DNA of 64,000 bases from Sthenelais limicola (lineage: Eukaryota; Annelida; Polychaeta; Phyllodocida; Sigalionidae). The position numbers and the translations under genes are program-made. The notes below the pieces were generated by a model that did no database searches, was not told the DNA's origin, and worked only from the letters and a program-made list of their open reading frames with translations. The stretch is from contig OW804094.1 in NCBI GenBank assembly GCA_942159475.1, positions 51,208,966 to 51,272,965 on the forward strand, written 5' to 3'. Positions 9,801-41,533 of the stretch are shown in pieces (the stretch's first letter is position 1; each line of letters opens with the position of its first letter).

Positions 9801-12800
9801 TTAAAGCAGACGGTGGGAAGACTGAATTTTCTATTTAAAAAAAAGATAATTAAGAATATAATTAATCAAACGAACACAATACAAACCTATGCAGTACCCA
9901 ATACGTGCTTTAACGGGCTTTAAGTTAGACATATGAATGGTTTCTCTCTATAGAAAAAAATAAAACATGATTCAGGGGGTTTAGTAATAGTTCACCACTC
10001 ATGATGATGAATTGCGATGGTGCCCTTTACTGTAATTAGCTTCTACATAGCCAACAGTTAGCCACCATACGAATAAAGGATTTCTCTTGAAACGTTCAGA
10101 TATCCATGATAATAACAATTATAATTTTGAGCAAGGAATTTAAGAAATAAAACAAAGATAGGTATCATATATATGTTAACACAATTCAACCGTGACAACT
10201 TTACTCGCCAAATAAAAAGGATCAGGGAGTTTTATCATAATACATGTACATCCCTTGGAGCTGAAGTCACTGCCTTATCAGTATGTACATTTGTAGGAAT
10301 TTACCAGTCAACACAACCAACGCTGCTGCTACCACCTCACGGCGACAGCTAAGCAAATCTTACCAACTACATTAATATTACGACGTACAGCACTCTTAAG
10401 GCCGTCGCACACAGTCAGGATTTGGAGGCCTCACGATGAGTTGTATGTTCTCATTTTCCCCCATACGTCGACGGCCGCCTAGCCGACAAGATTTACATCA
10501 ACTCACGTCAAGATGTGCGTTCAATTTTCACGCACACATACAGGATTTGAGGCACGATTTGAGGCACACAATTTCAAAAACTTGTGTTCACGTCAAATAT
10601 TCTAACTGCCAAATCGTGCACCAAACCTTGTATAGGTGTGTCTATGTAAAAATTGTTGTAGACTCATAAATTAATGCTCACAATTAATTTTCGTTAAAGA
10701 ATTTAAATGTATGACCGATTTTGTGATAAAAATCTATAAAAAACAAAAATATAGGAGCTGTGCCACGACGATCCAAATTATGGATTGACGTAGGCACAAT
10801 TCCGATGGAAAAACGGTGCATTCTTACACATTTTAGAGAATCAAACAAACAATAATGGCTGCTCTTACTGTCCCAAAATTGTTGACACATATAGTTCAGA
10901 TTATGTACTACATATTAAAAGGAAAAAAAATATATGTCATCGCGTTAAAAAAAATTATTATAGCTGTCTGAAATAGACATGTTTAGGAAACATAGAACAC
11001 TTTGAAAGCAGCAGATTTTGAGTTGTCAGCCATGTTTCAAAGCCCCATAATTCAGAAAAAGGAAAAAAGAGTCATTTAATTATTGGCCAAATAATACTCT
11101 CTCCAAAACTCTTAATTTTGTATAATTTTTAATTTTTGAATGTAAATAGCAAATATGAACCAAATCGTGGCCAGACTATTTCATGAAATCGTGAGTGTGT
11201 GTGCACAATTCTCACGATCTCAGGTTTTGACCAAATTTTCCCTGAAATCGTGACTGTGTGTGCAGTAAAAATGGACACGATTTAAAAAGAAATCTGCATG
11301 AATTCATCTCAAATCGTGAGAACATCCGAGATCTTGACTGTGTGCGTCGGCCTTAAATACACGCATTGCTCTAGAGTAGTTTTTCCTGATTTTCTATTTT
11401 CTTGATTAAAAGTATATAATAAATATGTTAACTAACTCGTTGCTACGCAACTCGTGCAATATTTGCGCTCCTTCAACCAACTCGTTAGTTAACCTGTATT
11501 TATTTAGCAATATTCTGCTGTTGTTATAAGTTTTATATAGGAATTTGAAGTCTAATCGACCGAGTGAATACATTATTGGGACTTTTGAGAGGCCTTGCAG
11601 CAAAACTAACTGGACAATATCCTCCAAAATGTTGGTCAAAGGACTTTTAGATAGAAGTAGAAAATGTTCAATTATTGCCCGATGTTAACGGAGAGTACAA
11701 CTTTAAATAAACCCTATTCATGTGTACTTATTCGTTTGACTTATTTGTTTCTTTTGTATGATCAGCTTGATTCCCATCCGGACCCATATGTGTTGTACTA
11801 CACATTATTGAATACTTTCTGGTGCGTTGGGCACATAGGCCCTCTTCCCATTTGTAATATAATCCTCCTAAATAATTTCTGATTGACGTGAGACGGGTTC
11901 TAAACAACCGAGTAAAATACTTTTCATTTATTTCTAATGAACTGCTATGTTTGGATATAATGTATACGATTATGAAAATAATATTATTATACAGCTTTTA
12001 GAAATGTCAACATAGAAACATATAATATTATTATGGCACATCTCATATTTTTTAGTCAAACAACAATTGATCAAATAGAGAGAATGGAACAAGGCGCCGG
12101 TATTCGAAAAGGATATCGGACGAGATTTATTATATCCTTAGCAAAGAAGAATATTAATGAATCGAAAATCAAAATGAAACACATGAGGTAAACATCCAAT
12201 ATAGATATTTCAATGTATCCCCTTTATTATTGCACATCTCTTACATCATGGGGGCAATAAAGGGTTAGGATGTGGCTTTGCCCAGTCCCTCTTTGGCCCC
12301 ATACACAGATCATAACATTCGATTGCGACGTGCAATCCCTAAAATCCCATTCACGGATAATGAATTCGCATACTACAGGCAAAATACTTAGCCTATGTAT
12401 TACCCTTAATGTAAATGCGGTAGCCCATGTGATTAGCTTCATAAGCCTTCAATCTAGTTCCCTGTACTAAATGGGCTTAATGTTTGGACAATGCAAAGTC
12501 TCTAGCCAAAGAGGAACCGCAACCCAACTGCAAAGCTTCAGGGTTGATTAGTGGTGGATACTGTATGTTGCATGATTTTGCGACCAAACTAGACTCAGTA
12601 ATTAACTTTAGTCTTCAACCCACACTCAATATCTCTCCTCCTTGGAATTACTTCAAACACTTCAGTATGTTAGTATGCGAACTTTAGCGACTCTATAAAT
12701 TTATTAACCTGATGTAAACTCAGCTAGTTTATAGGAAATAGTTCTATCTACTTTATGTTACCTGGAATATCCTTTACATACTGTACAACAATTGAGTAAC

Positions 12801-13874
12801 AACTATAATTCCTTATAACGTTAACCTTCCCATAATTATATTCGTAAAGCATTTCCTGCATGGGTGATAAACCAATTACCAAATTGCCCATATAGCCAAA
12901 TATTCGGTATACACTTAGTTACAACAGCCTGTATGTAAATTATAACCATGCACAAATTAAACACAAGGAGGTGTTACAGATTTCGACATTTGGTCCATAT
13001 ACTGTTATGAGCTCTAGGATTATCCAGCCAGAATAATTCATAGTTCAATTAATTCAACAGTGCCCATATATGGCATCTCAGAGGGAGATCTTTTAGTTTA
13101 CACCCGCCAACCCATTTTCAATGTTTCCCTGCTCATCATGTAGATTTACCTTAGCCGTGGTCCATAAACTACTATCAATTCAATACGTTAAACAAGTTAT
13201 CCAATACATCACTTTATTATATGCGCATTCCACTTGAGAGATGCGAAGAGTGCAATAAAAAATATCTTTATCGTACATGTATACCATAAAAAGGGTTTCT
13301 TTTAGTTATCAGATAATTCATGACGGTTCATAACCCAAAACAAAGGTTTATACTTCAATATTTTTGTATACAAGGGCATATAATAACTAGTGAATGGAAC
13401 TCGCTACTAGTAGTTGGGAATCTTTATTGGACTCGTTTGCTACGTAATCCCGTCCAATTAATATTCAATTACTAGCACCAAGTTTCATTCTCTCTATATA
13501 TCAACACTATAAACATTATATTTTCTCGCATAGAATAAATCGATATAATCAATTCATATGAGAAGTAAAATTAACTATATATGAAAGAAAAATGATTAGT
13601 CCCACAGAGCTGAGAACTGAGAATCTGACCCATTCCTATAATTCCGAAGTCGAGACATTCTGATAAGAATTTTGCTATAACTTATTTATAATCTACAATT
13701 AGTGACTCACCTCTTTGAAGGGAACCAAAGAGTTTTGACTTTTTCCTGACCCAAGGCTCCAGTATATTGAGTTCATCCTTGTCACGTTCATGTGGGGGCT
13801 TGGAGAGGCAGGCCACACACTTTTCATAGATGAACGCCATTCCTTGTACCTTAGCTCCTCCCGGTAATCTAGTC
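5912..13874 (-). CDS. Gene 1: tandem cyclic-nucleotide-binding domain protein (CNBD1/CNBD2-like), nine exons
   Basis: Exons in transcript order: 13711-13874, 9887-9943, 9615-9702, 9034-9158, 8521-8638, 8167-8358, 7838-7930, 7271-7479, 5912-6801. All phases agree, and from the ATG at 13840 they give 633 residues. Residues 1-43 carry a KPPHER-type N-terminal helix motif. CNB domain A spans about 63-172, with cassette FGELALLSEDCVRTAS (Glu141, Arg151). CNB domain B spans about 174-365: YFILSGEV near 233-240, then a roughly 95-residue insert, then the cassette GDVEFLLSLNKYHASAV with Glu341 but His350 where Arg is expected. The tail after about 400 is polar and probably disordered. The family senses cAMP or cGMP; mouse CNBD2/CRIS acts in sperm. 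Relationship to CNBD1/CNBD2 is my inference. Domain A looks able to bind ligand, domain B looks degenerate. The start is chosen because gene 2 has Met at the same place; upstream exons cannot be excluded. Confidence 0.85.
7271..7479 (-). CDS. Gene 1 exon 8 (charged insert inside CNB domain B)
   Basis: The exon encodes a Lys/Asp/Gln-rich insert starting DGIRKTDKKDAAQKLRKF, a short proline run, then TEKVNLCYLGEGQLL, which returns to the CNB fold just before cassette B. The acceptor is CAGCAG|G and the donor TTAG|GTACCT. The insert is likely a flexible surface loop. Confidence 0.82.
7838..7930 (-). CDS. Gene 1 exon 7 (CNB domain B strand and insert)
   Basis: The correct frame reads GEVKLVVDPETQHEQF and continues to NINLLRDG. 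The longer open frame through the same DNA (7685-8011) is a shadow. The acceptor is ATCCGCAG and the donor GCAG|GTAAGA. It is 93 bases against 123 in gene 2, a difference of ten codons in the insert. Confidence 0.85.
8167..8358 (-). CDS. Gene 1 exon 6 (hinge helix and start of CNB domain B)
   Basis: The exon encodes the domain A/B hinge helix (SVARVIEKEY) and the DWAQKWKKHLAIAM helix, then FKQGDIGDRLYFIL of domain B. The donor is AAG|GTTGGT, a weak GT site, but it joins in phase to GEVKLV in the next exon. Gene 2 encodes the same stretch without the exon 5/6 intron. Confidence 0.88.
8521..8638 (-). CDS. Gene 1 exon 5 (phosphate-binding cassette A)
   Basis: The exon encodes GDGAAFGELALL, then SEDCVRTASI and the following strand. 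Glu141 and Arg151 are the residues that hold the ribose hydroxyl and the cyclic phosphate in known CNB domains. The donor is ACAG|GTATTA and the acceptor TCTGCAG. Confidence 0.9.
9034..9158 (-). CDS. Gene 1 exon 4 (CNB domain A, middle strands)
   Basis: The exon encodes FYIILKGSVAVLI, a canonical CNB strand pair, and then an acidic loop with DVDDDAENE before the cassette. The acceptor is CCTTGCAG and the donor TTAG|GTAAAA. The loop is ten residues shorter than in gene 2. Confidence 0.85.
9615..9702 (-). CDS. Gene 1 exon 3 (start of CNB domain A)
   Basis: The exon encodes TVLDVIKHCEF followed by the beta-strand segment DEPVIVQGEKGY. The acceptor is TTTGCAG and the donor ACAG|GTAATA. It is 88 bases long, exactly like the matching exon of gene 2. 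QGEKG is the usual turn between the first CNB strands. Confidence 0.85.
9887..9943 (-). CDS. Gene 1 exon 2 (small linker exon)
   Basis: This 57-base exon encodes TIHMSNLKPVKARIGYCI and sits between tandem AGAGAG acceptor choices and a GTTTGT donor. Only use of the third AG keeps phase with exon 1, giving a Glu at the junction. The residues form the link between the N-terminal helix and the first CNB helix. The acceptor choice is the least certain splice site of the gene. Confidence 0.6.
10396..11356. mobile_element. TTAA-flanked inverted-repeat element (piggyBac-type target) in intron 1 of gene 1
   Basis: The element proper is 10400-11352. It begins GGCCGTCGCACACAGTC and ends with the near-perfect inverse GACTGTGTGCGTCGGCC. 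TTAA lies directly outside both ends, the target duplication made by piggyBac-superfamily elements. Many sub-terminal copies of words such as AAATCGTGA, CACGATTT and GTGTGTGCA occur within about 200 bases of each end. No transposase frame remains, so it is non-autonomous. Confidence 0.75.
11427..11494. repeat. Hairpin-family element, deleted copy (H1)
   Basis: GTTAACTAAC pairs with GTTAGTTAAC across a core containing CGTTGCTACGCAACTCG. It is an inverted, internally deleted copy of 20050-20146, sharing the flank GTTAACCTGTATTTATTT. It lies in intron 1 of gene 1. Confidence 0.6.
12073..12140. repeat. Hairpin-family element, partial copy (H5)
   Basis: It starts AAATAGAGAGAATGGAAC, then GCCGGTATTCGAAAA and GGACGAGATT, in the same order as at 41431-41490. 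AAGGATAT and ATATCCTT form a short stem. The core seen in the other copies is missing, so it is probably truncated. Confidence 0.45.
13408..13500. repeat. Hairpin-family element (H2)
   Basis: Arms at 13408-13432 and 13452-13474 are imperfect inverted repeats around the loop TCGTTTGCTACGTAATCCC. The right flank reads, inverted, TATAGAGAGAATGAAAC, as in the copies at 12073 and 41431. It lies in intron 1 of gene 1. Confidence 0.6.
13711..13874 (-). CDS. Gene 1 exon 1 (first recognisable coding exon)
   Basis: The donor is GAG|GTGAGT and the possible upstream acceptor is CTGCAG|GACT. From ATG at 13840-13838 the frame runs 43 codons plus one base, ending in FGSLQR. It aligns with gene 2 exon 1 (MAFIYEK against MALTYEK; WVRKKSKLF against WFRKKSDLF). 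The frame stays open upstream of the ATG through the acceptor, so this may be an internal exon or the 5' untranslated part of the first exon. Confidence 0.75.
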
Positions 13875-14540
13875 CTGCAGGTAGAAATTATGCATTTTGG
13901 TAAAAAGAACGCAATCTTAGATCTTGTTGCTGTTAGTGTCCATTACCAATGTGTGGCCCAGAGACGCTTTATGACACAGTGAGGGCACGGGTCTATTGAC
14001 TCGAGACCGACGAGAAGTTTATAAGTGGACGTGTGCATTACCAAATTTAAGAAATAATGATGTCTCAGGTTCTTACAACCTCAACTGCAGAGAATGCTTT
14101 GTCCCACTACCTGACACTCACGCCTATATATGGTTCCTGACGTGGTGACATTTATTATTGCACAGCAGAACACATTCTATATTTTCACAGAAAGGTTAAT
14201 TGAAATGATTTGATTGCCTACATTGGCGCATCATAGCTTGACTGAGGGGAACGATCATTCTCATGTTAACAATGTTAGACGGCAATATGTAAATTTAGGT
14301 AAATTTACATATAATATGATTAACGGGTAAATGACCTTTTATTCTTCTATCATCAGCCTTTAAAGACCAACAGACGATTTAATAAACGATAACATTGAAT
14401 TAAAAACATTTCCAGCCGTTACCTACTTCCAGGCTAGTTTGGCTTTGTAGAGAAAACTATTTCTGTATAACACAGATTTTGGAATATTGACAATTAAATT
14501 TCTCCTGTTCTTTGCATGGCTTCTGGTTGATAATGGTCTT
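13875..14540. other. Upstream of gene 1, nothing recognised
   Basis: No TATA-like promoter or upstream exon could be supported. An upstream exon of gene 1 may lie here or further right. Confidence 0.35.
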
Positions 14541-14965
14541 TTATCTAGGTTTTTGTCCGAAAATGATAGATGGAAGACACTCTCCCGGATATGAATCTCT
14601 CTTCTTTTTTTCTTTTTTCAATATTTTTAAATTTGAGAACTCTTTGTCTACATTCGGCTTTTTGTTCACTTTAAAAAAAGAGCGTACAGAGGAATTTAAC
14701 AGAGATTGTAGTCTCTCAAACATCTTTGCAGACGTAGATGAATAAAAGATATCGCCATAATCAATTGGTATAATCAATATTTTGACGATGTCAGTTTTAT
14801 ACGTTTTTATTTAATATATAACTCGATTGTCTGAGTAAGTTTACTTTCCATCTTACTTCATCGATTACAAGTTGTATATGATTGTTGAATGTTAATTTCT
14901 CATCAATCACTGAACCCAACCATCAATTCAGGGTTTTAGATGTTCATGAGAGAGAATAAGTGTTG
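14541..14965 (-). pseudogene. LINE reverse-transcriptase C-terminal fragment, frameshifted
   Basis: The minus strand reads LGSVIDEKLTFNNHIQLVID, then a Lys/Arg-rich helix, then, after a frameshift near 14800, IPIDYGDIFYSS and MFERLQSLLNSSVRSFF. These match the order 'YLGv.iD..l.f..Hi' then 'ilP.l.YGd.vY......LQ..qN..vR' of the region after the catalytic motifs in CR1/Jockey/L2-type non-LTR retrotransposons. The copy is dead through frameshift and truncation. Confidence 0.75.
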
Positions 14966-16970
14966 ATTCGTTTCATGACAAGACACATTTCAGAACTGAA
15001 ATAATTGTAACTTTCAAACTCAAACCCAAGTGTAAAATGGTGAAATCTGAATTTATATTACCTCAATCTTGTCATAAATTATCTATAATGTACTTTCATA
15101 ATTCCGGAATATTCTGGAGCTCTCAGAGAAATGTACCTCCAATTTGTACCTGGGCAATCACACATGCACAATACGCAATACCAACAAGAGATAAGAGACT
15201 CGACGTTCTCAAAAGAAAATTTATAATGTCGCTGAACTTATAGTTGTGTGTGTTCCTTCTGCAACTATGAAAGTAATCTGCAATCGAACTGGCGAGTGCA
15301 ATAATGATATAAGAGGAAGAGAGAACACCTGATGTTACCTTATATTTGTTGGGCATCTATACGGATGAAAAGTGTCGATATGAACACGCTCCGGATAGTA
15401 CTGTACGTTGTTCAAGTAAAAGAGACAACTACTAAATGGCCAGCACTACGCCTCCGCTTACCAAGAGCGCTCAATATACTTTGCCGCACAGTACTTCCAA
15501 TTCCTCCCACCCATGCATGAGGGATTACAAGCTAATCTAGTTCAAAACCATAAAGTACCCCACACTGCTATATAAAATAGTCGGGCGTTTTGTTTTCAGA
15601 ACAATTGCTTATCAACTTGAGCCTAGCTTGGTCTCCTTTCCAACAATGAAAAATTAGATAGGCATTCACGCAACAGGTAGAGCACTATTTCACTTCAAGT
15701 AGGTTATGGGAAAATTGTAAAATATCTTTAGAGGACCCTAATATCTATTATGTTTATGTTGGAGATGATATCCGTCATGTTAAAGTTCGATGCGACCAAG
15801 CTATTATCATAACTACTTTTTTCACCACTGAGAATAACACCTTTGATGTAATGTGCGTTTCAGAATAAAACATTGTCAATCAATCAGCTTGGGTAAAGGA
15901 TTAAGTCTTTAAAGAATTAAGCATGCAAAGAGATAATTGAAAGGCTGTATGCCATTTACCAACAAAGAATCCCATTCCCGGATTAATGACCTCTTAAAAA
16001 TATTGATGACTACATTATATTTGGAATGAAAAAAAAATCTTATATCAATCATATTACAACATACACAATTCAGAGTCTGGTCCATCATAAAGTTATAATG
16101 GACTGGTAAAATATATTGCACTCTTTTGTGATTATTTCACACCATTAAAGGGGTACTCAACGAAATGACCCCAAATGCGGCCCCTAAGGGTCAGATGACC
16201 AAAACAATGACAACAGAAATGATAGTTACCTAGGAACAACATAGAACTCACATCTCACTGGTCCTGCATGCTATTCTAGACAAGGTGCGACCACCCGCTT
16301 TTTCCCAAGAAAAAGTCATAAACATTTCTGATGTCGCCCTACTTACTTGGTCCTTCACTAATAGCTATGACTGCCGTAATGAATTTGCTCTGTTTCGAAC
16401 ATTTCCTCCTACTGACTAAGCCACTGAGTATTAGAAATCAACAGCTCCTGACTTAAAACTGACTTCATTTAAGCAAAATTTCTCTCGTATCTCGCCAATA
16501 AATCAATCCAAACGAAAAGCTACCCACATTCAAAAAGCATCCATATAGCTTCCCAGTAACTGCAACCATGCTACCCCGTCAGCCTCACTCTGATTCATGG
16601 TGTGCACACGGTGTCGGTATGAGTGTAGGGCTTATTTACAACATACGCCCTATGCTAAATATTGCTTATTTAACCTAGCAACTCAAAAGCTAACGTGTAC
16701 CTTTTCTACAGACGTGAGGTAACATCATAATAATTTGATTTACTGTCATTTATTTCTTATGTTGCATTTTCTAATTTTATCTTACGCTCTACTCACAGAA
16801 AATCTCAGGTGTCATGGGTTCATAGCTTCCAGGCACAGCTATAAATAAACTAAATATAGGAACAAAAATGAGTCTTCAAGGCATGCTTGTAAAGCATTTT
16901 CCTATACAATGCAGAGCTATGGATACCAATGAAGAAGAAAGAAAATAAGATCACCTCATTTCAATGAAGG
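14966..16970. other. No gene recognised
   Basis: Short open frames only. A 77-codon minus-strand frame at 15123-15356 has a hydrophobic stretch but no flanking splice or family support, and I do not call it. Confidence 0.4.
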
Positions 16971-17190
16971 CTACTGAGAAGGGCCATAAAGATCAGATGG
17001 CCCAACAAACCACACCAGAAAAATGGAGTAGCGTAATAAAGAAAAGAAGAATAAGGTGGTATGGGCATGTAATAAGACAGAAAATGCCCTAGAGGAGGCA
17101 CTAAGAAAAGTAAAGAAAGGAAAGGGCGGGCAGTCTGCTGCAGAAAGACCTAGACACTCAAACATGACAACAGACTCCATGAGTCTGGAC
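16971..17190 (+). pseudogene. LINE ORF2 C-terminal fragment, frameshifted
   Basis: The plus strand reads KRRIRWYGHVIRQKMP and then, after a stop and frame change, EEALRKVKKGKGG and a RP-containing run. This is the 'R+RWyGHV.R' motif and basic tail typical of the C-terminus of many LINE ORF2 proteins. Nothing upstream restores a reverse transcriptase. Confidence 0.65.
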
Positions 17191-17239
17191 CATCGCTCCG
17201 CAGAGCCCTTACCCTATAAAGTCACAAACCTAGATATCA

Positions 17240-17640
17240 CGCAACTGCATGCTTCTTGTACCACATACTTTCTTATCCTCAGGAGCTTGGTCTCTTGTCT
17301 TTTAGAACCTCTCAAACCATGCTCGTTGTCAGGATTATATATACCAACTTTAGAAAGTCTCAGCTCCATTTCACCCTGCCAGCTGAGGTCTCAACCATGC
17401 GTTTCCTCAAGGTTTTCGGACTATTTTGAATGGGCTGTCCCATTTAGCCCATTTAGCACAATATTTATTAAATGCCTTTGGAGGGTAATATCTATACACC
17501 AAGTCATGTACTTTAAACGACCGGGAATGAGTCTTCATATCATATACATGTGGGCTTCTATGACACATTTTCAGTGTCTTCTTCACAAAATCGTGAGACT
17601 TATGCAGTTTCAGACGGCCAGACAATTAAAATTAACCTGG
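17240..17640 (-). pseudogene. Ty3/gypsy-type integrase C-terminal fragment
   Basis: The minus strand at 17625-17407 reads a helix with HKSHDFVKKTLKM, then YDMKTHSRSFKVHDLVYRYY, then KWDSPFKIVRK. This matches the integrase tail 'R+K.yYD.......F.vGDlVy......K....W.GPy.V'. The usual Gly before Asp is His. A stop follows, and downstream frames continue weak similarity to about 17240. It is an isolated fragment without LTRs nearby. Confidence 0.75.
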
Positions 17641-17649
17641 AAGTAATCC

Positions 17650-19260
17650 GGCTTCTGGCTATTGCAATGGTGATGATGCAAACAGTTTCCCCCAGTAACA
17701 GTAGATTAATTTACTGAATCTTTTCTATATCAACCTTTTTCATATTCCAATGCATTCCCCATGCCTTATAACATAGAAAAAGTGCATTCACACTTGTGTA
17801 CATGTTTATTCTATCCCAAGTTATGGAGTTTCAAAGTTTTAGTGGCGACCATTTTTATTTTCAACTGTCACAGGTTTTCCTACGGGAATTTAAATCTTTT
17901 GAAATATGTTATATGATCTATGGATTCAGAATGTATGATGGGAAACATAGCCTTTTATGTCATGTATGTCAATTTACATTCGAGGAATAATATGTATTCC
18001 TCCACCCTGAACCTGGGATGATTTCTGTAGGATTTACACTGACATACAACTCTCATAATTCCTTGGGAAATGGTGGCTATGCAAATTTCCCTATTAGGTG
18101 GGCGACGTTGACGTTGGTCAAAGTAGGGCCCTAGCATCCAATGTAGGAGACCTAAGTGTTCCCCTTTTGCAACTGTACAATTATATAGATTTCTGGTTGT
18201 TATTGGTTAAGGGTCATGCTTTGCGAATTATTATTCGCTCACCCCCAGAATCAAGAATACAGCATTGTGGGAGCGAATTTTTATGTGTTGTTGTCAGGTT
18301 TCCCGAGTTGTGAAGAGCAGCCTAGCACTAGACTAGCCCTCGTCTGCTAAGACTGCAGTTGTTTATAGAGCCCTAGTGCAAGTCTAGGCGCTCCCCATTC
18401 ATGGAATGTCTTATTCCTCAGTCGAGGGGGTAGTGACTCAATTTGATTGTCATTTTAATTGAACTTTTGTTTATAAAAAAAAATATCAAAGACTAAGCAA
18501 GTCTAGCCTAGCACGAGTGAAATTGCCAGGGGTGAGAATGAGTTGTTTTAGTTGCTTGAACGACCTTGAGGCTTGGGGTTATAAAATGATTACTAACCTA
18601 TATTTCGAGTCTGCTCGTACAATAATGTTTGCCTTTAATGTCGGTCATTAATTCATTATCAACTACCGCTTTTCAACTAATCCTAACACAGGAAAACTAA
18701 TCTCAAGTGTAGGAAATAATATGATAGGATGTAACGAGGTTGGTAACTGACTTACCGTATACGATGCCCACAAGAAGCCGTAGGCTTCGAGTGATATCCC
18801 TGGTCGGAAAAAAACTGGCTATTTTGGGGTCTGGGGCTCCGACGATAACGAAACGTTAGGATCACTACTATAATATTACAAACTTCATGATAAAAATACC
18901 ATATCAACAAAACGTCGTTGTCTGTTTTTTATGTGAAAACCAATGTTACATTTTATACTTATAATGTGTGTGATATTGACCATCACCTTTGGAACTCGAA
19001 ATACTAGGATGGTACTATTTATAATGGCGTATATTGGTTAAATGAGTTAAGTTACATTTAAATGTTTTCTCGTATTAAAAAGCCCTAGATCTTGTTGGTA
19101 ATTGGAATGTAGGAATGCCAAAGACCCAAATTGGTTTCCGGGATCATGGCACCTTTAATCTCAACTGAGGACACTTCAGTACTTAAATATGGAGCTTAAT
19201 CAGTCCCATACACTACACTAAGTGAGGGATTAGTTTAGCCCAACAAAAGTGATCGCCCAG
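17650..19260. other. No gene recognised
   Basis: No supported exon or mobile element. The stretch 18300-18420 repeats CTAGTGCAAGTCTAG-like words, and poly(A) lies near 18475. Confidence 0.4.
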
Positions 19261-19266
19261 CTACTC

Positions 19267-20037: not shown

Positions 20038-20146
20038 AAATAAATACAGGTTAACTAACGAGTTGGTTGAAGGAGCGTGAATATTGCACGAGTTGCGTAG
20101 CAACAAGTGCAATATTCTAAGTGACTGAAACCAACTCGTTAGTTGC
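20038..20146. repeat. Hairpin-family element, most complete copy (H3)
   Basis: The outer arms AACTAACGAGTTGGTT (20053-20068) and AACCAACTCGTTAGTT (20129-20144) are a perfect 16-base inverted repeat. Inner arms GAATATTGCAC and GTGCAATATTC (20079-20089, 20107-20117) are also perfect. The tip is GAGTTGCGTAGCAACAA. A deleted, inverted relative lies at 11427-11494. Confidence 0.7.
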
Positions 20147-20650
20147 TTTCATGCTTTCAATCATGAAAAAAATTGAGTCATGAATTTGAATTTCACGGGT
20201 AATCTTAGTAAAAAAAAACTAGATTGGTTGCCATGAAAATCCCACGTAAATCACTAGTGAAATATGCACTATGCGTAAATCACTCTAGATATGTTGTTTT
20301 TGGTGCAATGCGTGTATAATAAAATGAAATAAATTTAGAAATTATTAGTTTGGTAAATCTAGTGGCAGCGTGAAGGCGCATGCTCTTAGTTGGTGTAAGA
20401 TTGGAGTATTTTGGGGCAGCGTGAAAGTACAGCATGCACTTTGTTCGTATTAGGGTATAGTTGGTCTGTGGATGTAGCGGCAGCGTGAAGATGCAGCATG
20501 CTCTTTGAAATTTGTTGGTTTTTGGCTATATGGCCAGGGGATCTAGTTGTATTTTGTCAGGTTTGGAGAGGTTTTTGAACTGTTCGTAAGAGGGTGTGTA
20601 TTTTTTGTTGATGTGAGCGAATTATATGCCTGTTAACAAATTATTATTAA

Positions 20651-23923: not shown

Positions 23924-26900
23924 CTGAAGTATTATTTAATTCATTATACCTTATTCAAAAAATATTAATAGGCTAATAGCAGCATTGGCGAACATGTCGG
24001 TTCTGAACCCAAACTGTTTCTCATGTAATAACTCACTGTCTTCTAGATAATTTATAATTTGCTCTTGAACATGCTTCTCAAAACTTTCCGCACAATGCTA
24101 AGCTTAGAAATAGGCCCATAATTAATTATATTAGTGTGGGTACTATTTCCCTTGTACATAGGGATGTAAGAACGATGTGTGCAGTTGATATTGTAAAGGC
24201 AATCAAACATTTAACCTGCGGTTTTTCCTAAATGATTGTAGTGTAGAACTGAATAACATCAAACATTCGGACGTTCAACGCTTCTTATGATTCTGGAATA
24301 TGAGGACCTTTCAAAATCAAAATTTCATAAAAAAAAACTGCTCAGGTTAACTCAGGTTAAGTTCTTACTTACCCTTGACGCAGATGCCATTCCTTGATTA
24401 ATCGTTCTTCCTTTATCCTAGCCATTAGGACCTTCTTTTTATGTATGTTTCTTAGTTTAGACAGTCCTACTTCCAACAACATTATATTATATCCGATACA
24501 TACGCTCGACTGGTCAATCCTTGTATCCACATTGGTTTATATTAAATCTACTGTGTGTAAATTTGATAGAAGAAGAAAAAAAACTGTTCGGTATGGTTGT
24601 AAATGAAGATTGTGTGCCTGCCTACAGGCTCAGCAAGGGGTCTTACACTGGATGTATAACAGCATATATACTGAATTAAAATGAAGTATGATCTTGGGGA
24701 GGAGTGTGTGTTTTTGTGTGTGTTTTTAGGGGGGGGGGCATAAGCAAAGATCTCCCTCAAGCGCAAACCTTTACTAACGATTGCCCTTTTTCGCGTGTAG
24801 TCTTAATTTGTTTGTTCTAACATTCTCGAGAATTATTCAGTAGCATTCAAAACTGTTGTGAATAAAATTGGTTATTATTTACATTATAATTAATATTTAT
24901 TTTATATTGTGTGTGTAGTCTTTTGGGTAGGTCCCCCTTGTATTGAAAGGCAGGAGATGGAATTATTTTCTCTAATCACATTTGATGACCCTTGAAGAAA
25001 CGTGGTGCAAGGTGTACTTTCTCTGAGCCTATTTTAACCATAATATTCTCTGCCGCCTATATTAAACTACTGGTGGCGTAATTAATCCTTATGCAAACGG
25101 AATATAACATTCATTTATTGTAATTTCTGGAAGAGGTTATTGAGCTTCAGCAGAAACATACTTAGTATATCACGTACAGTATGTATAATGACCAATTCTA
25201 TTTTGTTGCCGTCCATAAGTGTTATACATCATATCTTCAGGAATATTACAGATCAATTAATCCTGGAACACATATAAAGTAAAATATTATGTTGTCATTT
25301 AACAAAATGATATTTTCACTGGACGAAATCATATCACAGATATCTTTTTTTACATGCGTCACGGAAGTAGTATTCCTGGAACATGTATATACATATCATA
25401 TATGTATATTTGAACACATCTTTAATATCAAAAACGTAATGACTATGCATCTAAAGCATGGAAAAGGTTCTATGGTGATGTGACGAATGGCTAAACACAC
25501 CCTCCCTTATAAGCCAAGACTTTTAACTAAGGGAAAAAAACACCCAAAACAAAATCATATTGTGATGTGTTGCAGGAAAATGAGTCACAAGTCGCAAAAA
25601 GGATATTTTTCAAAGTGTTATTTCTACAAAATCTCTTTGTTGCAATGTTCTCGATTTTGGGAGGCTTAGGCTTAATATGCCCTACGAATCTATGCACCAG
25701 ATTTCAGGACATTGTATTGAATATATCCTTGCATTTTAAAGGTCTTCTTTTGTATTCAAAATCAATATTTTGCAACTTGTCACTCATTTTCCTGTGACAC
25801 ATCATATTTATATGTCGTTAATCTTCAGTTATGTCGTAGGTCTACACAACCCATTTTCCATGTAAAACCTAGTCGGAAAATCTTAGTATTGATATTTATA
25901 GACTGATATTACACAGAACTAATAATAAATATCAAATCTAAAGTTCATTATCAAAATGCTACCTCATAAGACCATAAAAGCGTTAATCTTCCTATGTCGT
26001 TAATCTTCATCACCTCTGGTTCCCATGTGTGGCTGGCGTCATGCATTTTGTCTGCTCAGGCCCAAGAAAAACTCTAACCAATACGGTTATAAGGTTCATT
26101 ACATATCAAATCCTATGAATTTTATCAGTATTTGTTCGATTTGGATAACTTTCATTATTTTTTTTTTAAATTCCACCTTCATAAAACGAGATGTCGTTAA
26201 TCTACACCAGGGGTACCCACACAAAAAAATTATGGATTTTGATGGCTTTTGTCCAAAATCTTTTGCAATTTGTTTTACACAGATCATGTTCAAGTAACCT
26301 ACTATCACAACATATAAAAACAATATTTAAACAATAATATTTGCCCCCAAAATGGGATTTTGAAAAGAAAAAAAAATCTGTGGTAAAAATGCCAAAAATG
26401 TGGTTCCATAGGTTGTTAGAACCATCCAATCAAAAAAACCCCTCAAATTAATGGTAATTTATTTGTATTAAGCCCATTTAATCACATTCCATGGTTGGGG
26501 GCCAAATGTTGTCAAATTGGTGGAATTGGCCATGTACATGTTATATTAAGGCCTACACCTTCAATAAAACAGAAAAGATTTGTGACAAATACATTTGATA
26601 TGTGCCTCAACATCTAGTTACATTTAATGCTGTGTAGTACTAATAAATTTGCTCAGAATTATGTCATTTCTGCTTATCTGTTAAATTTAACATTTTAATT
26701 AGTATTACTCCTCTGAAATAAAATAAGAGTCCAGAATAGAAAATTATGTAATTATCAGTACTTATGGTCGCAAGAAAGGCACCAGACCCACCCTAAACTA
26801 AGACTGGGTATTAGTGTTACTAAATAATAATAACAGAGAGCATCGACATAAATATAAATGGAACGTACCACGGGTGTATTCTCTCCTAGGGTTATGCATC

Positions 26901-26990
26901 AAGGTTGTGGCAGGAGAGAATACACCCAAATATGTTCTATATTTATTATACTACTAAATAAATAAAATAGCATAATGTAAAACTAATTAC
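23924..26990. other. No gene recognised; spaced repeat words
   Basis: There is no supported exon. ATGTCGTTAATCTWCA recurs at about 25812, 25994 and 26191. A hairpin lies at 26858-26950. Open frames in this stretch lack family motifs. Confidence 0.4.
26858..26950. repeat. Foldback hairpin
   Basis: GGGTGTATTCTCTCCT (26872-26887) and AGGAGAGAATACACCC (26912-26927) are perfect inverse copies. Outside them, AT-rich segments containing AAATATAAATGGAAC and GTTCTATATTTAT continue the pairing imperfectly. Confidence 0.7.
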
Positions 26991-27038
<48 letters not shown>

Positions 27039-32150: not shown

Positions 32151-32152
32151 TG

Positions 32153-33319: not shown

Positions 33320-33382
33320 GTGACATTGAGAACATTCATAGTGACTTTGAGAACATTCGTAGCGACTTTGAGTACATTCGCA
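33320..33382. repeat. Three 21-base tandem repeats
   Basis: Units GTGACATTGAGAACATTCAT A, GTGACTTTGAGAACATTCGT A and GCGACTTTGAGTACATTCGC A follow each other exactly. The segment before them (TTTGGGACAAATTCC...ATAATCAAAGTTGAGAA) recurs at 36975-37015. Confidence 0.8.
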
Positions 33383-34110
33383 GCAAATCCTGGCAATGTA
33401 CACTCTCTATTCCTCTCAGCCCATGGCGCCTCCCTGTCTGTTATTATGGTTATTACGTAATAAGACAACTCACATGGCCGGTCCCGTCACCGGCCTATTT
33501 CTCGTGAATCCGGAGAGCTGCGAATGTCAGTGCGAATACGAATGTTCCCGCGAACGTCCTACATTATGTAACGCCAGGCCGGGACATTCTTTGTAACATT
33601 TGAAAACCATTCGCAAATTTTCAAAATAAATCTTGCCATGTCTCATTCATTATGAAACAGTACCTTTAAGGTATTGTTGATTCATATTCTTAATTTCAGA
33701 TAAAATTGTAGAGTTACTCTAAAGGCCCATTTACATTACAAGAAATACGGATGCCGTTACGTAATTGAGATAGGTTTGTGCGGATTACTTCCACTCAATT
33801 CTACGTAAGAGAAGGGGTATCTTTTGCAAAGATAACACTGCTTTAATTTAGACTTGTTCAGGCGGGGGAGGGGATCGTTAATAAAGGGCATATAATATCA
33901 CTATAAAATCTTTTGATAAGAAATAAATACATGGAGATACATGTGGTACAATTGTTATAATACTTTACTTTACGTTGATGTATGTACCACATGCTATTTG
34001 TATGTGCGGGAGTAGTGTGGAAATTTTCACCAGTTCCACACGTGTGGTATGACTTCCTGTCCTCAGTAAGCATAGCCATATAAGGTAAGCATAGCAACGT
34101 CGGAGTAAAT

Positions 34111-34270
34111 ATAGAACCTAAATTCGAATGTGGTACTTGGGACACATTTACACTGTCCTTGATGGGTTTTTTTCGTAACCCACTTGCCTATCGGTTCGTG
34201 GGCCACGAAAAAACAAACATTTCAGACAGTGTAATAGTGTCCCTTGTACCACATTCTCATCAGGTTCTAT
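34111..34270. mobile_element. Foldback element of 160 bases
   Basis: The left arm (ATAGAACCT, GAATGTGGTAC, GGGACAC, TACACTGTC) is matched inverted by the right arm (GACAGTGTA, GTGTCCC, GTACCACATTC, AGGTTCTAT). Inside, TTTTTTTCGT and ACGAAAAAA pair again. Confidence 0.7.
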
Positions 34271-34851
34271 TTATTTACATACCACACAATATTTTTTCTT
34301 TAAAATTGGATTGGTCCTTGGTATGACCATAAAGTGCCTTTCTGTCTCTTTTCTCTGTCTCTCTCTCCCTTCTTCTCTATCTCTATTTCCTTGGTATGAT
34401 TATAAACTGCCTCCCTCTCAGCTCTCCCGCCCTTGATATAAGCATCTTAAATGTGTTGATGAGGGCATAAAGCAACCAATCTCACTACATTGTTTTTTAA
34501 ATGTTTATTCGACAAAATTTCACATGATGTGATACATTTCATTCAGCAACAAAAATTTCAATCACAGATACTATTAACGTTCATAACTGACTTTCACATT
34601 AATTGTTTTACTTCTTTTAACTTAATTTACACCATCACCTTTCAATCTCTTTAATACAATTTCATTCATTTCTATAGATCAAAGCAAATTCCGACCCTCC
34701 CAACATGCCTCAAATCTGTTCAGTAATTTAACTTTAACATTAATGAGTATCATAAGATTTGTACCGTGGTTATCATGTTATAGTCGTTAATCTGTTATTA
34801 GGGCTCTATTCACCGAGAATCTGTATCGGACGTTTATGTATGTATTAATTA

Positions 34852-34873
34852 TGTATGTATGTATGTATGTATA
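34852..34873. repeat. Microsatellite (TGTA)n, second tract
   Basis: Short TATG/TGTA run followed by the TTTATTTCCAG flank shared with 32188-32205. Confidence 0.75.
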
Positions 34874-34999
34874 ATATTTATTTCCAGTCTACATTGTACA
34901 TTCAAAATAGTAGTAGTAATAATAAAATCAAATCTGGGAATGGGCAGCCCCTTCTATGAAAATCATAGCTCTTCCAGGAGTTCCCTGAGTTCCCATCTC

Positions 35000-35629
35000 A
35001 GTTTATTTTAGTAAGAATATCAAATGTGTACATACCCCATCTTTATCTAGTTCTTTGTTGTGGGTATATTCCAATGGATCGAAAATAAGCCAGGCCAATC
35101 CTTTTTTTTCTAGTCTCTCTCCACGATTCGACTTGCCTCGTTACTAAAGCAGTCCGTTTCTCCCTGTCTGGACATAAATTAATGTGAGTTCTTTGTTGTT
35201 GGATATGCTAGATAACAGTAACAACACAAGTTTACACACTTGTCTCAACCAGCCCCTACTCCTATTCGTCTCCTTTGATGAATTGGTCTTGATTAAATAA
35301 ATGAATGGAACTTAGCTCATGTGTTCTGCCATCTGACTGATCAAGCATACGCATTTACTCATAATCAGTTTTACATACCATTTACGTACCAACAGTGTGT
35401 CCGGTTAAAGCTGGTCCTTAATATCTAAGTTTTGGCAGGGAGGTGACTCCCAGGCGCAGTGTAATAGGCCCGACAACTAACACTGGTGGAGAGAAGCCAA
35501 CACCTTACTAAATGAATTAGCCAAACTAACCATGTATAATTCTAGAAGTACCTTTGTACTTCCAATGCTGTTGTGCCTCCCCTCAACTTTACATGATATT
35601 TCCGGTTCAACCCAAGCTTTTCTCTCAGC

Positions 35630-35662
<33 letters not shown>

Positions 35663-36420
35663 GGTCTTGGCTATGGTGTGTGTTCATGTTTTGATGCATG
35701 TATTTAATCACTAGAAATCAAAGGGCCAAAGCAAGGGATTTGGTCACAGCGCTTAATAATTGATCCATTTGTGTCTAATACAGCATGAAAACGATCCCCA
35801 GAATCGTTAATGCGGTGGCACCCGGTTAACCTTGGTACTGACCATGCGCATGACTTGCGCAGAACTACGTTGGATGGCTGTCTGCGATTTTAATAGTCCA
35901 TTCTCAGTCTTTTAAGACTTTTAAGTGTAAATCTATTCGAAATGAGTAAAGTATGGCTCGCAGCACTTCCGCCGTTTCTGTACTCCAGTATGAATATTGG
36001 TAAATAGAATTCAAGTCATCTTCCTAGTACTACTGTTGTCAGTAAGTAATATGAAACGAAAACCACATGTTTAATATAAAACCTGATTGTCCAATAGCTG
36101 ATGTAGAATATCCAAAATAACTATAAAATATACCAGAACACTTTTTATATCACCGGCAAGATAGTGGAACCTCAACTAAGAAATGAGAGGGATTTTCACT
36201 TGTTTAAATTGAGAGTGAAATATGTATTATTAAATAAACAGTCATATAGTATGCTATATCGATAAGGAATTATGAGCATGCATCTCAAACTTAGAAATAA
36301 GCGTGAAATATGGTTCAAGAGACACAAATGTATTGTAGTGTAAAATGTATTATGCGAACAGTCATAAAAAAATATATGTTACAGGAATTATGTAATTGGA
36401 ATTAGTTATAAGCATGAAAT
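35000..36420. other. No gene recognised; GA microsatellite with G run
   Basis: (GA)n at 35630-35651 runs directly into a run of G (about 35652-35664). Nothing else is supported. Confidence 0.45.
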
Positions 36421-36760
36421 ATTGGGTGATTAGATCATGAGGTTGTATTGCCTGAGGCCGTCTACGGGTCCAGGAAGAAGGCCAAAGCAAAGCCGAGGTC
36501 TTCCGGCCGAAGTAACACAACCAAATGATCTAATGGATTTAGTCCCCAATTGTTGGGTTGTTACTGTCATTAACAACACATTATAAATGATTTCGAAGCA
36601 AAATGAACCAGTGGAAAGCCATGAGCTTGCCATTTTGAGCATAGATATTGTTTTTTATTTTTGTTGATGTAAGCGGTCGGCCGGAAGCACTAGTAGGACT
36701 GCATGGTCTGCAGGCCTACAACTGCTGCCGCTATCCCACCAAAGGGCGAGTAAGGTTCAA
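36421..36760. repeat. Dispersed repeat copy B
   Basis: It is related to 1690-2110 (shared TTATAAATGATTTCGAAGCA, ACCAGTGGAAAGCCATGA and GATGTAAGCGG). The nested inverted ends are diverged here (TTTAGTCCCCAATTGTTGGG and CCCACCAAAGGGCGAGTAAG). Confidence 0.65.
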
Positions 36761-37767
36761 GAGACACAGATTGTATTGTAAATCATCCAATATTATATCA
36801 TTTTGTTCTCATCTCAACTGATTTCTTTCTATCCTACCGTTATCCTAATGTTATATTCCTACTCAGAAAAAAAATAGCCAGAAGCAGGGAGAAGCAGGTA
36901 GCCTTATACCTGATCTCTGTAATGTGATGGTGTTGAGCAAAGGCCAACACTATAAATGATAAGAAAGAAATCCCATTTGGGACAAATTCCGTTTTATAAT
37001 CAAAGTTGAGAAGTCATCTCAAAGTTTGAGAAGATCTAACAGACTTTGAAAAGATTTCGCAACTAATTTTCGCAACTTGTAGAATTTTCGCCATATCTGC
37101 TAGGCTACTTCATATATTTACTGGGAATTTTCGGAATCATCTTCACCGGTGCGTGAATCAATAAGCAAAGTCAGGACTTTTCTGAGTGTCAAATCTTCCT
37201 TTGAAATATGTTTGATGGGTACAATAATATAGAATTTAAGTCGTCACTGTAATTGTATAGTAATGTATGGTTTTCTCCAGAATAAATGTAATAGTGAGGT
37301 GTGGGAATATATAATATATATAAATAGGTGTAGCATTTAGCGCGACACTATGTTTGAGCTATATCATCTTTCATGTTGATATATTAGCAGCTGTATCTCC
37401 ATATGAATGCTCAATATTTGCTAAAAAGTGTTAACAGTAAAAGTCTGTATATTCCTGCATATATGACTGGGTCACTTGTCGATAGGGTGTCATTTTTGAC
37501 TGATGTAAAAGGGGAGAAAGCTTGGTACCCTAGTGAAAGTTTGCTGTAAAAAGCTTGCGATCGCCGACTTTTAGTCTCACTAGAATTAACGTATTGTTTA
37601 GGAGTTGATAACTTTGATAATCTCAGTACCCTATGCGCAATAGCGATTTCCGGACATGCGTTATCGCCAGCGCAACTTGGGTAATGTGAGGGGAGAAAGT
37701 ATGGTCCCCGAGTGAAGGCCCAGTTTGAGGGATTACGGAAAAATGGCAAGCCCATTGCAGCTAATGT

Positions 37768-37833
37768 GTATGATAAATAATTGGAACTCAACACGAAGCT
37801 GCAGGATAGTCGACGGACAGCATTGTCCGCCTA
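37768..37833. repeat. Dispersed 66-base repeat, copy 1
   Basis: GTATGATAAATAATTGGAAC and GCAGGATAGTCGACGGACAG are repeated almost unchanged at 42531-42596. The end GGACAGCATTGTCC is a small palindrome. Confidence 0.75.
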
Positions 37834-39190
37834 TTTATTAGACAAAAGAAAAGGTTTCTGCGGGAATTACTAGGTCTGTCTGTCTCTGTGTAATAGACTA
37901 TAATTATCTAATTATTCTACATACGCGGTAAGGGTCAAATGAGAGAAGCAATAACCTCCGCACGAACAGGAACTATAATTATCCGAAGGACTAACGGACA
38001 CGTATAGACTTTACGTGAAACTAAAACTGTGAAAACACGTCTTCACTGAATCTTTAATCTTAAATTTTTTGATTGAATGAAGCACTCTCACCGCTTGATA
38101 TTGTTATTTCACACCTTATATTATGTATACCTATGTACTTTCATTTCTACGATTATATATCTGGCTGGGGCAAGGCCAGCTCAGATCAAGCTCAGCTATG
38201 GCTCCACCTGGTGGGACTCATAATTATCTCGCCCCATATAGATAATGTGGCACATATGAGCGTCATTTGGGTTGAAAAACAACAGCCCCTCCAGAGGCTA
38301 AAATACTTACCTGAGAGTATTTGCTTTGGTACTCTTTAATCCCGGAGAGAAAAATAGTCAAGACGGAAGTATTCTTTGACGTCTTTTTAAATATTTCTTT
38401 AATAATGAGATCAACAAAATGCTTATTTCCGTGCATGCACCACACATAAAAAACGGAGGTTTTCCTATCCAAACTACTATAAAATGCAGCAGTTTTCATC
38501 AATAAATAAATTATTATTATTAGTGTAGTGGTTTTTCCCCTAATGGCGGACTTTGGTGAGTAGTATGCCATTGGCGGACTTTGGTGAGTAGTACCAAAAT
38601 TAACACCAGGTGGACAGGCGGCCTACCGGCCCTAGGTCAGAGGTTAGCAGGGTTCATATACACATGTATGCTATAGTTCTCAGCTTCTCATCGCACAATT
38701 CCCGATTAAACATGCATTTATAGGCACTGAACAACAGGTGTCTGGCATTATTGAGTTGCATTCTGTTGTTCATAATATTAGACCTTCCATAATCTAAAAC
38801 TGAGGCTCGAAATAATGTCCCCCTGCCTTGTCAACCCTTAGCTACTCTTGTTTTAGCTTGTTTTAGTAGCCCAGAGATTTATATTTTGATTTGAATTAGG
38901 GTATAGAGAAATTGAAACACCTTAAGGGGGTATAGTCTATTAACCTTGAAATAAAAAACGTAATCTTTCCTAAATGATATGATACCACTTATAGGCCTAG
39001 AAATTATGTATAGAAAAGGAAGCTTAAAAAGGTAATATATACATTGAGAGATAAGGGGTATTTCTACTCTTTCCGGAGATAAGGGGTAGAAAATTAGGGA
39101 ATGAGCCTATGTGTCTATCTAATATACTGAGTGGGGTGGCCGGGACCCTACCATATCGTATCAGACTCTATTATTACCGGTATGGTATGA
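37834..39190. other. No gene recognised
   Basis: Only short frames. A tandem pair of GGCGGACTTTGGTGAGTAGT lies at 38544-38592. Confidence 0.45.
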
Positions 39191-39194
39191 ATAC

Positions 39195-40358
39195 TATGAT
39201 ACCATATGAGTAATTCTCCCAAACGGGCAGCATTTGATTTCAGGAGGCCTTTTTTTTTTAGAAAAAATACAATTCGTCAAATCTCTACAATTTTTGGCGT
39301 ACATATAGAAGGGAATATCATCATTATACTGACAAAGTTTGGGAAGGCTGTGCCAAATATTTTGATTCCTACACCTATGCTTCAGAAACCCCCATTTTTG
39401 CTTTTTTCGCCTATATTAAGCCAGATTTATCAAATAATATTGTGTAAATTTGATATGAGTAACGCAGTAATTATGGCAGCAATATTAAATAAGAAAGTGA
39501 CAGCTAGGAAATCGATGGTAGCCGCCAACATAGGACCTGGTTGTAACCCAAGTTTGAATAACTTTTTGGCAAAATATCCGTTTTATTTCTATACAGTAAC
39601 TGTGCTAATACAGAAGGATCTCTATTATTCCTATTAATTATGGCGTAACGGCGACGCTATGTGGTAATGGCGACATTCCAACATAGGCTCACTGCAATTC
39701 AACAGCATCTGCATTTATTCATATCTATATCTTTTACCGAATTCAGCTGGGCCTAAAGAATTATGATAATAGGCGAAATTGCAAAAAAATATATTTCATT
39801 CTAAATTATGGGACTTAATTCACATGTCGTAACGCGACATAAAACATTCCAACATGAATTCAATGAATTGTATTTTAGGAAATAAGAGGGTTCATACACA
39901 TTATAGGCTAATAACTTTGATTTTTATCAAAAGATACCTATGTGTACATCTTCCCTACCCCCCAATATTACATGCAATGTAATATTTATGGTGACTCTTT
40001 GGGTATTTCATTAGTTTGAAGCTAAATATTCCAAAATGATATTTTCCATGTCTAGATCGGTTTATACTAGAGATTCCTTAGATATTGTGTTTTTCATAAT
40101 AACAAACATGTGTGCATGTGTCAGAACCATTTTTCGTCAGCAAAAGTAATATATTTTCTAAATGCGCCAGTGTATTATATTCGAATTCCATAATTATTGA
40201 ATTATTGAATGTAGGGTACCCCCGACCTCATTTCGGCCAAGGAATTGAAATAAAATGGTTATAATCGTGTGTGACCATCCCAAATACAGGTTGTAGACAC
40301 CCTAGGTTGGAAAACCAAATGATGCTCGATTGGGAGAATTACTCATATATACGGTATA
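39195..40358. mobile_element. Inverted-repeat element of about 1.15 kb
   Basis: ATGAGTAATTCTCCCAAACG (left, from about 39206) is matched inverted by GATTGGGAGAATTACTCAT (right, about 40328-40346). Pairing extends through the CAGCATTTGATT/AACCAAATGATG block and weakly outward through GATACC/GGTATA. The interior is AT-rich. Confidence 0.65.
39206..39637 (+). CDS. Unrecognised 143-codon ORF at the left end of the inverted-repeat element
   Basis: The ATG is inside the left terminal repeat and the frame runs to 39637. I recognise no transposase DDE/DDD pattern, zinc finger or other domain. The protein is rich in Ile, Lys and Asn, as expected of translated AT-rich DNA. It could be a remnant or chance open frame. 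Confidence 0.2.
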   Translation: MSNSPKRAAFDFRRPFFFRKNTIRQISTIFGVHIEGNIIIILTKFGKAVPNILIPTPMLQKPPFLLFSPILSQIYQIILCKFDMSNAVIMAAILNKKVTARKSMVAANIGPGCNPSLNNFLAKYPFYFYTVTVLIQKDLYYSY

Positions 40359-40359
40359 G

Positions 40360-41430
40360 ATTCTGTTCACTGGCAGTAAATGTGTGGAGCTGCTATATAT
40401 TATAGATGCAGCATGGATACAAAGCCTCCTTAATTCAGTATAACCCGGTTTGTTTTACATAAATAGATACGGTACTTATACTAGATACATGTATGTTAAT
40501 CTGTCTGAAAAATCGGGAGATCTCCCGCCAAGTCGGGAGGTTTGGCACCTCTGTCAGCATGCAACGAAATGTCTGACCCATGTGTCATAGGTCGCCGGGG
40601 GTCAACCCCTATCCTCCTGGGCCGCTTCTTGGCTCCACCTGGTGGTTAACTACATCGTCACTAAAGTTCGCCATACCACCGACCAGATTCACTTTCGACG
40701 TTCCACACAAAGAAGACACAACACAGACGTAAACTACGTTACTCCAGCTCCCTTCTTTATTCAACTCTTATCCGGACATGAAGCTCCCAGAAGCTTGACA
40801 CAACCTTGGTGTCCGTGGACACCTAACTATTATGGAGTGCAGTACAAAGAGGTCCCTGCACTCGTACACATATTAAGTCCTTGTAAGGAATAAAGAAGGA
40901 GAGAACCTTTAACATTGAGAGTCTGGAAGTGTAAATAATAAAGCCCAACATGGCTACTAAAAGTTATAATAAAAGATGATAAAGAGACACAAGGCCTTTA
41001 TGTAAGTTAAGAATGTAAAACCAAGCATGGTTCGCCCCGTGGCGCTTGCTGGTGTTAGTCACCAGAAGTAAAACCCCTACAATAGCATAAATCATTTTTT
41101 CTTGGTGTTAAAATATGCAAGAAACACCAGGCACATAAATACATACAAAAACTGTATTTGAACTAATTTGGATAGGGGCCACAAGCATAAAAAAGTATGG
41201 CGCCGTAACTGGGGTCTAGAGGGCGACCATGTCGCCGTAATGGGGGTCTAGAGGGGGCGGTGTCTGAAGTGGGGTTGAAACTATTTTTTCTAAATTTTCC
41301 CCTACTAATTTTGCCTCTAAATACCTAAATATAACTTATGTTTACCTTCATAAACAACCGAATTGCAAGGCAACTTAATAGGAAAACAAGGGGAAACAGT
41401 GTTATTAATATTTTTGCATATATTCTAAAT
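40360..41430. other. No gene recognised
   Basis: An 83-codon frame at 40642-40893 lies in a GC-richer patch. A 15-base GGCTCCACCTGGTGG segment there is shared with about 38200, so the patch may be part of a repeat. Confidence 0.4.
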
Positions 41431-41533
41431 AAATAGAGAGAATGGGACGAGCCGGCAATAATCGAAAATTTATAGGACGAGATTCGTCCACATAAGCACT
41501 CTGCCTACGGCATCGTGCTTATGTGGACGAATC
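41431..41533. repeat. Hairpin-family element with perfect 19-base arms (H4)
   Basis: AAATAGAGAGAATGGGAC opens the copy. GATTCGTCCACATAAGCAC (41481-41499) and its exact inverse (41515-41533) surround the loop TCTGCCTACGGCATC. The GGACGAGATT word just before the arm is shared with the copy at 12073. Confidence 0.75.

Follow-up and report, generated by a model that had tools for sequence, protein, structure and literature searches.

Long hairpins with a fixed tip and exchanged arms as the probable 3′ termini of Helitron2/Helentron-like elements in Sthenelais limicola

A 64,000-nucleotide stretch of the Sthenelais limicola genome (hereafter the window; C1:51208966-51272965 of a 1.13-Gb assembly, on which all genome-wide counts were made) contains long hairpins that are probably the 3′ termini of non-autonomous, Helitron2/Helentron-like rolling-circle elements, the giant hairpin acting as a termination signal under selection for structure. 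Judged by their anatomy, membership of Helitron2 is likely. The hairpins themselves are real and do not arise by chance: the 11-mer tip TTGCTACGYAA has 1788 matches in the genome against 746 for the backwards pattern (2.4-fold), an excess that rules out the chance reading and agrees with the original prediction of a recurrent core.

That prediction described long inverted repeats at 11427, 13408, 20053 and 41481, with a recurring tip, flank and word, and with arms unrelated from copy to copy. All but the last of these claims stood. Hairpins are found within a few bases of each position (Table 1). Five stretches were folded as DNA: four beat their shuffles (z = −3.3, −10.1, −4.9 and −7.3), and the fifth, at 12073, did not (z = −0.3). 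Tip words occur in all four hairpins (at 11441, 13438, 20094 on the minus strand, and 41502), and the three occurrences of TGCTACGYA in the window all lie inside hairpins. The flank, AGAGAGAATGRRAC, is present at 12077, 13482 (minus strand) and 41435; the word, GGACGAGATT, at 12118 and 41475. The arms are not unrelated from copy to copy, however: the 11427 and 20053 copies show 96% identity over 71 bp and belong to the same family (A), and the copies at 12073, 13408 and 41481 form one second, related lineage (B/C). Deletions and an inversion explain the divergent look of two copies: that at 11427 has lost the interval separating two ACTCGTTG repeats, and that at 41481 has an inverted apex and no longer has the left-arm base.

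Table 1. Elements and hairpins in the window (ATIR, asymmetric terminal inverted repeat)
Feature	Position	Strand	Details
Family A element, internally deleted	11353..11499	+	5′ end TTAAATACACGC; 3′ end CCTGTAT; limits by eye
Hairpin of the 11353..11499 element	11427-11493; tip word 11441-11449	+	Deletion joins the ACTCGTTG repeats of the outer and inner notch
Decayed B/C-lineage element	12075..12261	-	3′ end CTCTCTAT at 12075; no significant fold; 5′ hairpin about 12220-12261 (5′ limit by eye); 3′ hairpin largely gone
Full-length family B element	13214..13497	+	5′ end TTATTATATGCGC; 3′ end CTCTCTAT
3′ copy of ATIR, GCATATAATAACT	13376..13388	+	
Family B 3′ hairpin	about 13392..13490	+	TAC triloop 13441-13443
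Full-length family A element	20044..20322	-	3′ hairpin 20051-20145
Family C element, 5′ part without defined limit	41433..41626	-	Limits by eye; apex palindrome (hairpin) 41481-41533 inverted relative to base; 3′ ATIR and left-arm base deleted

The window holds other features. Likely exons are located at 5915-6826 (minus strand; four unnamed database relatives) and at 61412-61816 (plus strand), the latter with a match just under the cut-off to the cyclic nucleotide-binding domain PF00027. Two dispersed repeat pairs are present, 1760-1895 with 36530-36665 (85% identity) and 37768-37833 with 42531-42596 (95% identity), as is a perfect 16-bp inverted repeat, GGGTGTATTCTCTCCT, after TATAATAAAT (26872-26927, minus strand). 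Rfam gave no match in the window at gathering score.

The hairpins do not stand alone but terminate, on the 3′ side, short interspersed elements of three non-coding families (A, B and C), and BLAST comparisons of copy with copy returned common stretches of about 300 bp that end at the hairpin. Among the first 28 of the 1788 listed tip sites, 27 have family A or B arms and one (L003) has neither (by eye). The family A alignment comprises the 30 best matches to the 20053 hairpin (best 40 of 2932 first-look candidates scored) and that of family B the 30 best matches to the 13408 hairpin (best 40 of 850 scored); these are the nearest copies, and divergence among them is biased low. Family C was defined from the 41481 hairpin (best 40 of 289 scored). 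Consensus length is about 295 bp in both A and B; two C units measured 488 and 619 bp. The exact 3′ end of C, CCGGCTCGTCCCATTCTCTCTAT, has 1315 genome matches (none for the backwards control), and that of B 165 (none for the control). Four canonical C hairpins differ from each other at 1-2 of 145 bases, which indicates that C moved recently.

A search for further families, with a pattern requiring a base other than A at the sixth base of the spacer and blind to families with A there, yielded 14 matches, by eye mutated copies of A (12) or B (2). A scan of 291 kb returned A, B and C, two older C-like copies (L045 and L046) and a short C-like one (L086), the rest being unrelated palindromes or chance matches. 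Outside the three families, L066:368-about 515 contains a near-perfect inverted repeat of about 140 bp (GCAAAAGTGCATTCGGGACGATCTGTTGTCCC...), unrelated to them and preceded by GATAATAAAT. The exact 20-mer tip had no match in viral_contigs or in genome_contigs, and in the literature, as far as the retrieved portions extend, the tip words occur in 11 papers, titled on other subjects. A tRNA-derived SINE was considered from copy L008, which reads GGTTCAAAC, resembling a B box, and was set aside: the consensus does not carry it.

Each element starts with TTATTATAYRYGC, has an inverted copy of this sequence directly upstream of a 95-140-nt hairpin, and ends in a short tail, CTGTAT or CTCTAT. The layout of family A is TTATTATACACGC ... 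GCATGTATAATAAAT, hairpin, CTGTAT; that of B is TTATTATATGCGC ... GCATATAATAAAT, hairpin, CTCTAT; and that of C is TTATTATACGYGC ... GCACATATAATAAAT, hairpin, CTCTAT. Both ATIR and hairpin are present in the consensus of 30 A and 30 B copies. The 5′ ATIR begins at most 2 bp from the 5′ end and matches its inverted copy over 10-12 bp in the A and B consensus (in C, by reading); in B its outermost five bases are weakly conserved (about half to three fifths of 25 copies) and may belong to the target instead of the element. From the 3′ ATIR to the 3′ end the distance is about 110 nt in A and B and about 150 nt in C, and the hairpin, of about 37-60 pairs, has its base about 4-7 nt from that end.

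With DNA parameters the consensus hairpins of A, B and C are predicted to fold at −27, −38 and −64 kcal/mol. The folded consensus consists of a basal stem, a 2×2 internal loop, or notch (TC on both strands), a long stem, a second internal loop, and a TAC triloop closed by C-G. The second loop is of the same TC/TC type, but TT/TC in C; the long stem of A has additional small mismatches, and the C hairpin has one additional 19-bp segment with a third loop (TC/TC). From ATAATAAAT to the first ACTCG the spacing is 10 nt in all three families; the next notch follows about 30 nt on, and then the TAC triloop. A second palindrome is found close to the 5′ end in each family, its arms unlike between B and C. 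As to a 5′ hairpin that includes the ATIR, a feature of Helitron2, the B consensus forms one, C does so weakly and A does not.

Target-site duplications, for which a check had been proposed at the outset, were absent from the flank comparison (the 27 of 30 A and 25 of 30 B copies with an intact 5′ end). Family A inserts at T^NTAT, without duplication, and the left flank is T-rich. Joined flanks were used to recover empty sites of family A, and 11 of the listed matches were aligned. For the insertion at L031, three paralogues were available: GAACT^GTATTTTG stands in two, and the other is unlike at the junction; at L001 one A is missing relative to three paralogues; at L034 (three paralogues) T/A richness makes the junction ambiguous; and L046 and L048 are insertions adjoining another A copy. 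Tandem units also occur: L116 contains an exact head-to-tail junction, CTCTAT joined to TTATTATACGCGC, twice at a distance of 619 bp, L004 contains one exact A-family junction (CTGTAT joined to TTATTATA), and that at L046 is inexact.

These data bear on the class of element. Long inverted repeats, short length and many copies are what would be expected of a foldback element or a MITE of a cut-and-paste (DDE) transposon, but the two termini are not mutual inverted repeats, the tandem junctions are exact and no duplication accompanies insertion (flank test of A and B; empty sites of A). We regard this origin as very improbable, and on the duplication-free flanks (A and B) and empty sites (A) the MITE reading was rejected.

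Rep-type genes are plentiful. Genome-wide, 150 of 171 candidates are scored matches to the Rep domain PF14214, a few of them fragments of one locus and many lying in open frames of 1442-2416 codons; at the end of one Rep gene there is a weak match to an endonuclease-like domain (PF14529, E 1.6e-5, short of the curated cut-off). No autonomous copy with A, B or C ends was found when Rep matches were compared with the first 100 listed B and C ends and nine Rep flanks were inspected. By eye, the 23 Rep matches on C1:0-84 Mb are all more than 30 kb away from the C ends among the first 100 listed (the closest pair about 31 kb apart), and for the first 100 listed B ends the distance to any Rep match exceeds 60 kb (minimum 61 kb). 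The nine stretches downstream of Rep genes (1.6-5.5 kb, placed partly by estimate) gave weak single-motif matches and no such hairpin; the ends of the elements lie beyond them, and the search in these flanks failed because the Rep elements are longer than the stretches. Two Rep gene 3′ flanks (L106 and L115) that come from separate chromosomes show 99.8% identity across about 3.4 kb and have 109-bp tandem units in common; the Rep elements themselves therefore look recently active.

This lack of linkage between Rep matches and B or C ends (the first 100 listed of each, and the nine flanks) is what would be seen if another single-strand or recombinase system (IS200/IS605-like, Crypton or IS607-like) moved the elements with no Helitron Rep-Helicase, and subterminal hairpins, absence of target duplication and a T-rich left flank would suit such a system too. 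Against it, an ATIR followed by a hairpin is the signature published for Helitron2 (PMC3627910, in the part available), exact head-to-tail units fit rolling circles, and Rep-domain matches are many; we judge it distinctly unlikely.

The original prediction also held that arms change while staying complementary, as opposed to one consensus arm sequence decaying at random. Inside families A and B the latter is observed. Among 26 gapless B copies (44 paired columns), 43 changes affect the left arm only and 34 the right arm only; double changes comprise 1 that is compensatory and 3 others, the shuffle mean for compensatory changes being 1.0; among 41 A copies (37 pairs) there are 75 left-only and 30 right-only changes and 2 compensatory ones (shuffle mean 1.8). 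Within A and within B, then, one consensus arm set decays without compensation, as expected of dead copies. Between B and C the arms do change together. Over 41 columns from the base, 27 pairs are identical, 8 are compensated, 2 are paired in one family only and 4 are unpaired in both: 8 of the 10 differing paired columns are compensated, and the four doubly unpaired columns are the two 2×2 notches. The comparison of A with B (fixed ungapped register, 39 columns) gave 11 identical columns, 11 with compensation, 15 in which a single family pairs and 2 unpaired in both. Left-arm identity is 34/44 for B and C and 16/39 for A and B; A and B carry largely unrelated arms on the same architecture. 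Because A and B are both palindromes, compensation between them is nearly automatic; the B/C comparison carries weight because these arms are clearly homologous, and, being a single pair of families, it represents few independent events.

How arms change is indicated by the apex and the notches. Of 13 C copies fetched, eight have the canonical apex, four (L095-L098) have it inverted relative to the base and one (L099) has two apexes; the flipped copies entered the set because they matched best the copy at 41481 in the window, itself flipped, so that 4/13 is biased upward and is no genome frequency. Notches were counted in orientation-filtered sets (41 A, 26 B and 7 C copies, the outer-right row of A left out). 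The outer right notch of B has changed from TC to GA in 9 of 26 copies, against five adjacent double changes in the 94 other dinucleotides together. The equivalent change in A is less striking: GA stands at the outer left notch in 5 of 41 copies, but the 93 other dinucleotides together show 26 double changes, as many as 4 of them at a single place.

Template switching at hairpins has been documented to repair stems in one step and to invert loops (PMC8794818, in the part available), and the inverted 41481 apex and TC-to-GA notches fit this process. It is possible, if unlikely, that template switching alone rewrites the arms and flips the apex, with no selection for structure: the documented stem fixing and loop inversion, the flipped and doubled apexes and the notch changes (B, and more weakly A) all speak for it. 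However, copying one arm onto the other closes the unpaired notches, yet these persist in the consensus of all three families, which argues that selection on structure is also needed; the nine B copies with a GA notch, moreover, may reflect one inherited event. Both mechanisms originally suggested thus find some support, structure selection in the retained unpaired loops and palindrome rewriting in the inverted apexes and altered notches. We infer that template switching is the supply and transposition function the filter.

If the hairpins are termini of Helitron2/Helentron-like elements, as we prefer, a Rep-type nuclease encoded elsewhere would nick the element 5′ end, one strand would be peeled off, and the giant hairpin would stall the machinery, whereupon the 3′ end would be cut and the circle closed. 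What the protein would recognize is the TAC tip together with the unpaired TC/TC notches, spaced at about 30 nt, and not the stem letters, leaving the arms free to drift while pairing. Template switching at the palindrome would supply stem-repairing or apex-flipping changes, and transposition would select structures with tip and notches intact. A more radical reading, which we hold to be rather unlikely, is of a separate group of ssDNA transposons that the genome's Rep-Helicase Helitrons do not serve and whose own nuclease would read a ‘notch code’ (TC/TC loops about three and two helical turns apart, and the TAC tip) on the giant 3′ hairpin; template switching would write the arms and flip the apex, and only arms keeping the notches would move again.

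As 3′ ends of transposons, these hairpins form a natural series: stem letters are exchanged while tip and unpaired notches are kept. The series matches the prediction from the Helraiser stem-swap and loop-change experiments and names the bases that a rolling-circle nuclease should need. Family C, being young and present in many copies, allows a direct comparison of hairpins before and after an apex flip, and hence a view of how palindromes mutate.

The original remark that no named family was known with this description does not hold for the class of element, since the anatomy is Helitron2/Helentron-like. It is not that of Helitron1 (5′ TC, 3′ CTRR, insertion between A and T): here the start is TTATTATA and the end CTGTAT or CTCTAT. 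The comparisons that follow draw on the available portions of the cited papers. Helitron2 (Bao and Jurka 2013, PMC3627910) has ATIRs, the 3′ one immediately upstream of the 3′ hairpin, starts with T, makes no target duplication and shows compensatory changes between two related families. Families A, B and C share the ATIRs and their placement, the T start and the between-family compensation, together with a T-rich target without duplication (flank test of A and B; empty sites of A). They differ in the far larger hairpin (about 95-140 nt, with internal notches), in the distance of the 3′ ATIR from the end (about 110-150 nt versus about 20-30 bp), in the target (T^NTAT versus TTTT^T/C) and in that a RepHel partner is not linked among the 150 Rep matches.

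Helentrons, HINEs and DINE-1 are short and non-coding, with inverted repeats by both ends, a 3′ palindrome and a T-rich target without duplication (PMC4067079, PMC7492417). The elements described here resemble these, including the oyster HINE, in every one of these respects, and at least one Rep gene in the genome ends, as in Helentrons, in an endonuclease-like domain (below the curated cut-off). In the mite families, however, the 3′ palindrome is 5-10 bp long and the repeats lie 38-60 bp from the 3′ end (PMC4067079, PMC7492417); a short palindrome of this kind, 8-35 bp from the end, characterizes Helentrons and HINEs, compared with about 37-60 pairs and a base about 4-7 nt from the end here; a conserved tip with exchanged arms, present here, is not described in the available text of those accounts.

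Fusarium FoHeli (PMC5148889) likewise has an ATIR, hairpins, a TNAT-type target and joined-end circles, all of which have counterparts here (joined ends in the last case), but its 3′ repeat is about 20-50 bp from the end, its hairpins are short and its order of target and element is unlike. In Helraiser (PMC4778049), the ends of which (5′ TC, 3′ CTAG) and short hairpin differ from ours, the 3′ hairpin is the terminator: about 90% of activity remained after the stem was exchanged, whereas altering the loop and its closing pair did as much harm as deleting the hairpin. Replaceable stem letters, a fixed loop and precise head-to-tail junctions are features that the elements of S. limicola share with it, as, we suggest, is the role of the hairpin as terminator.
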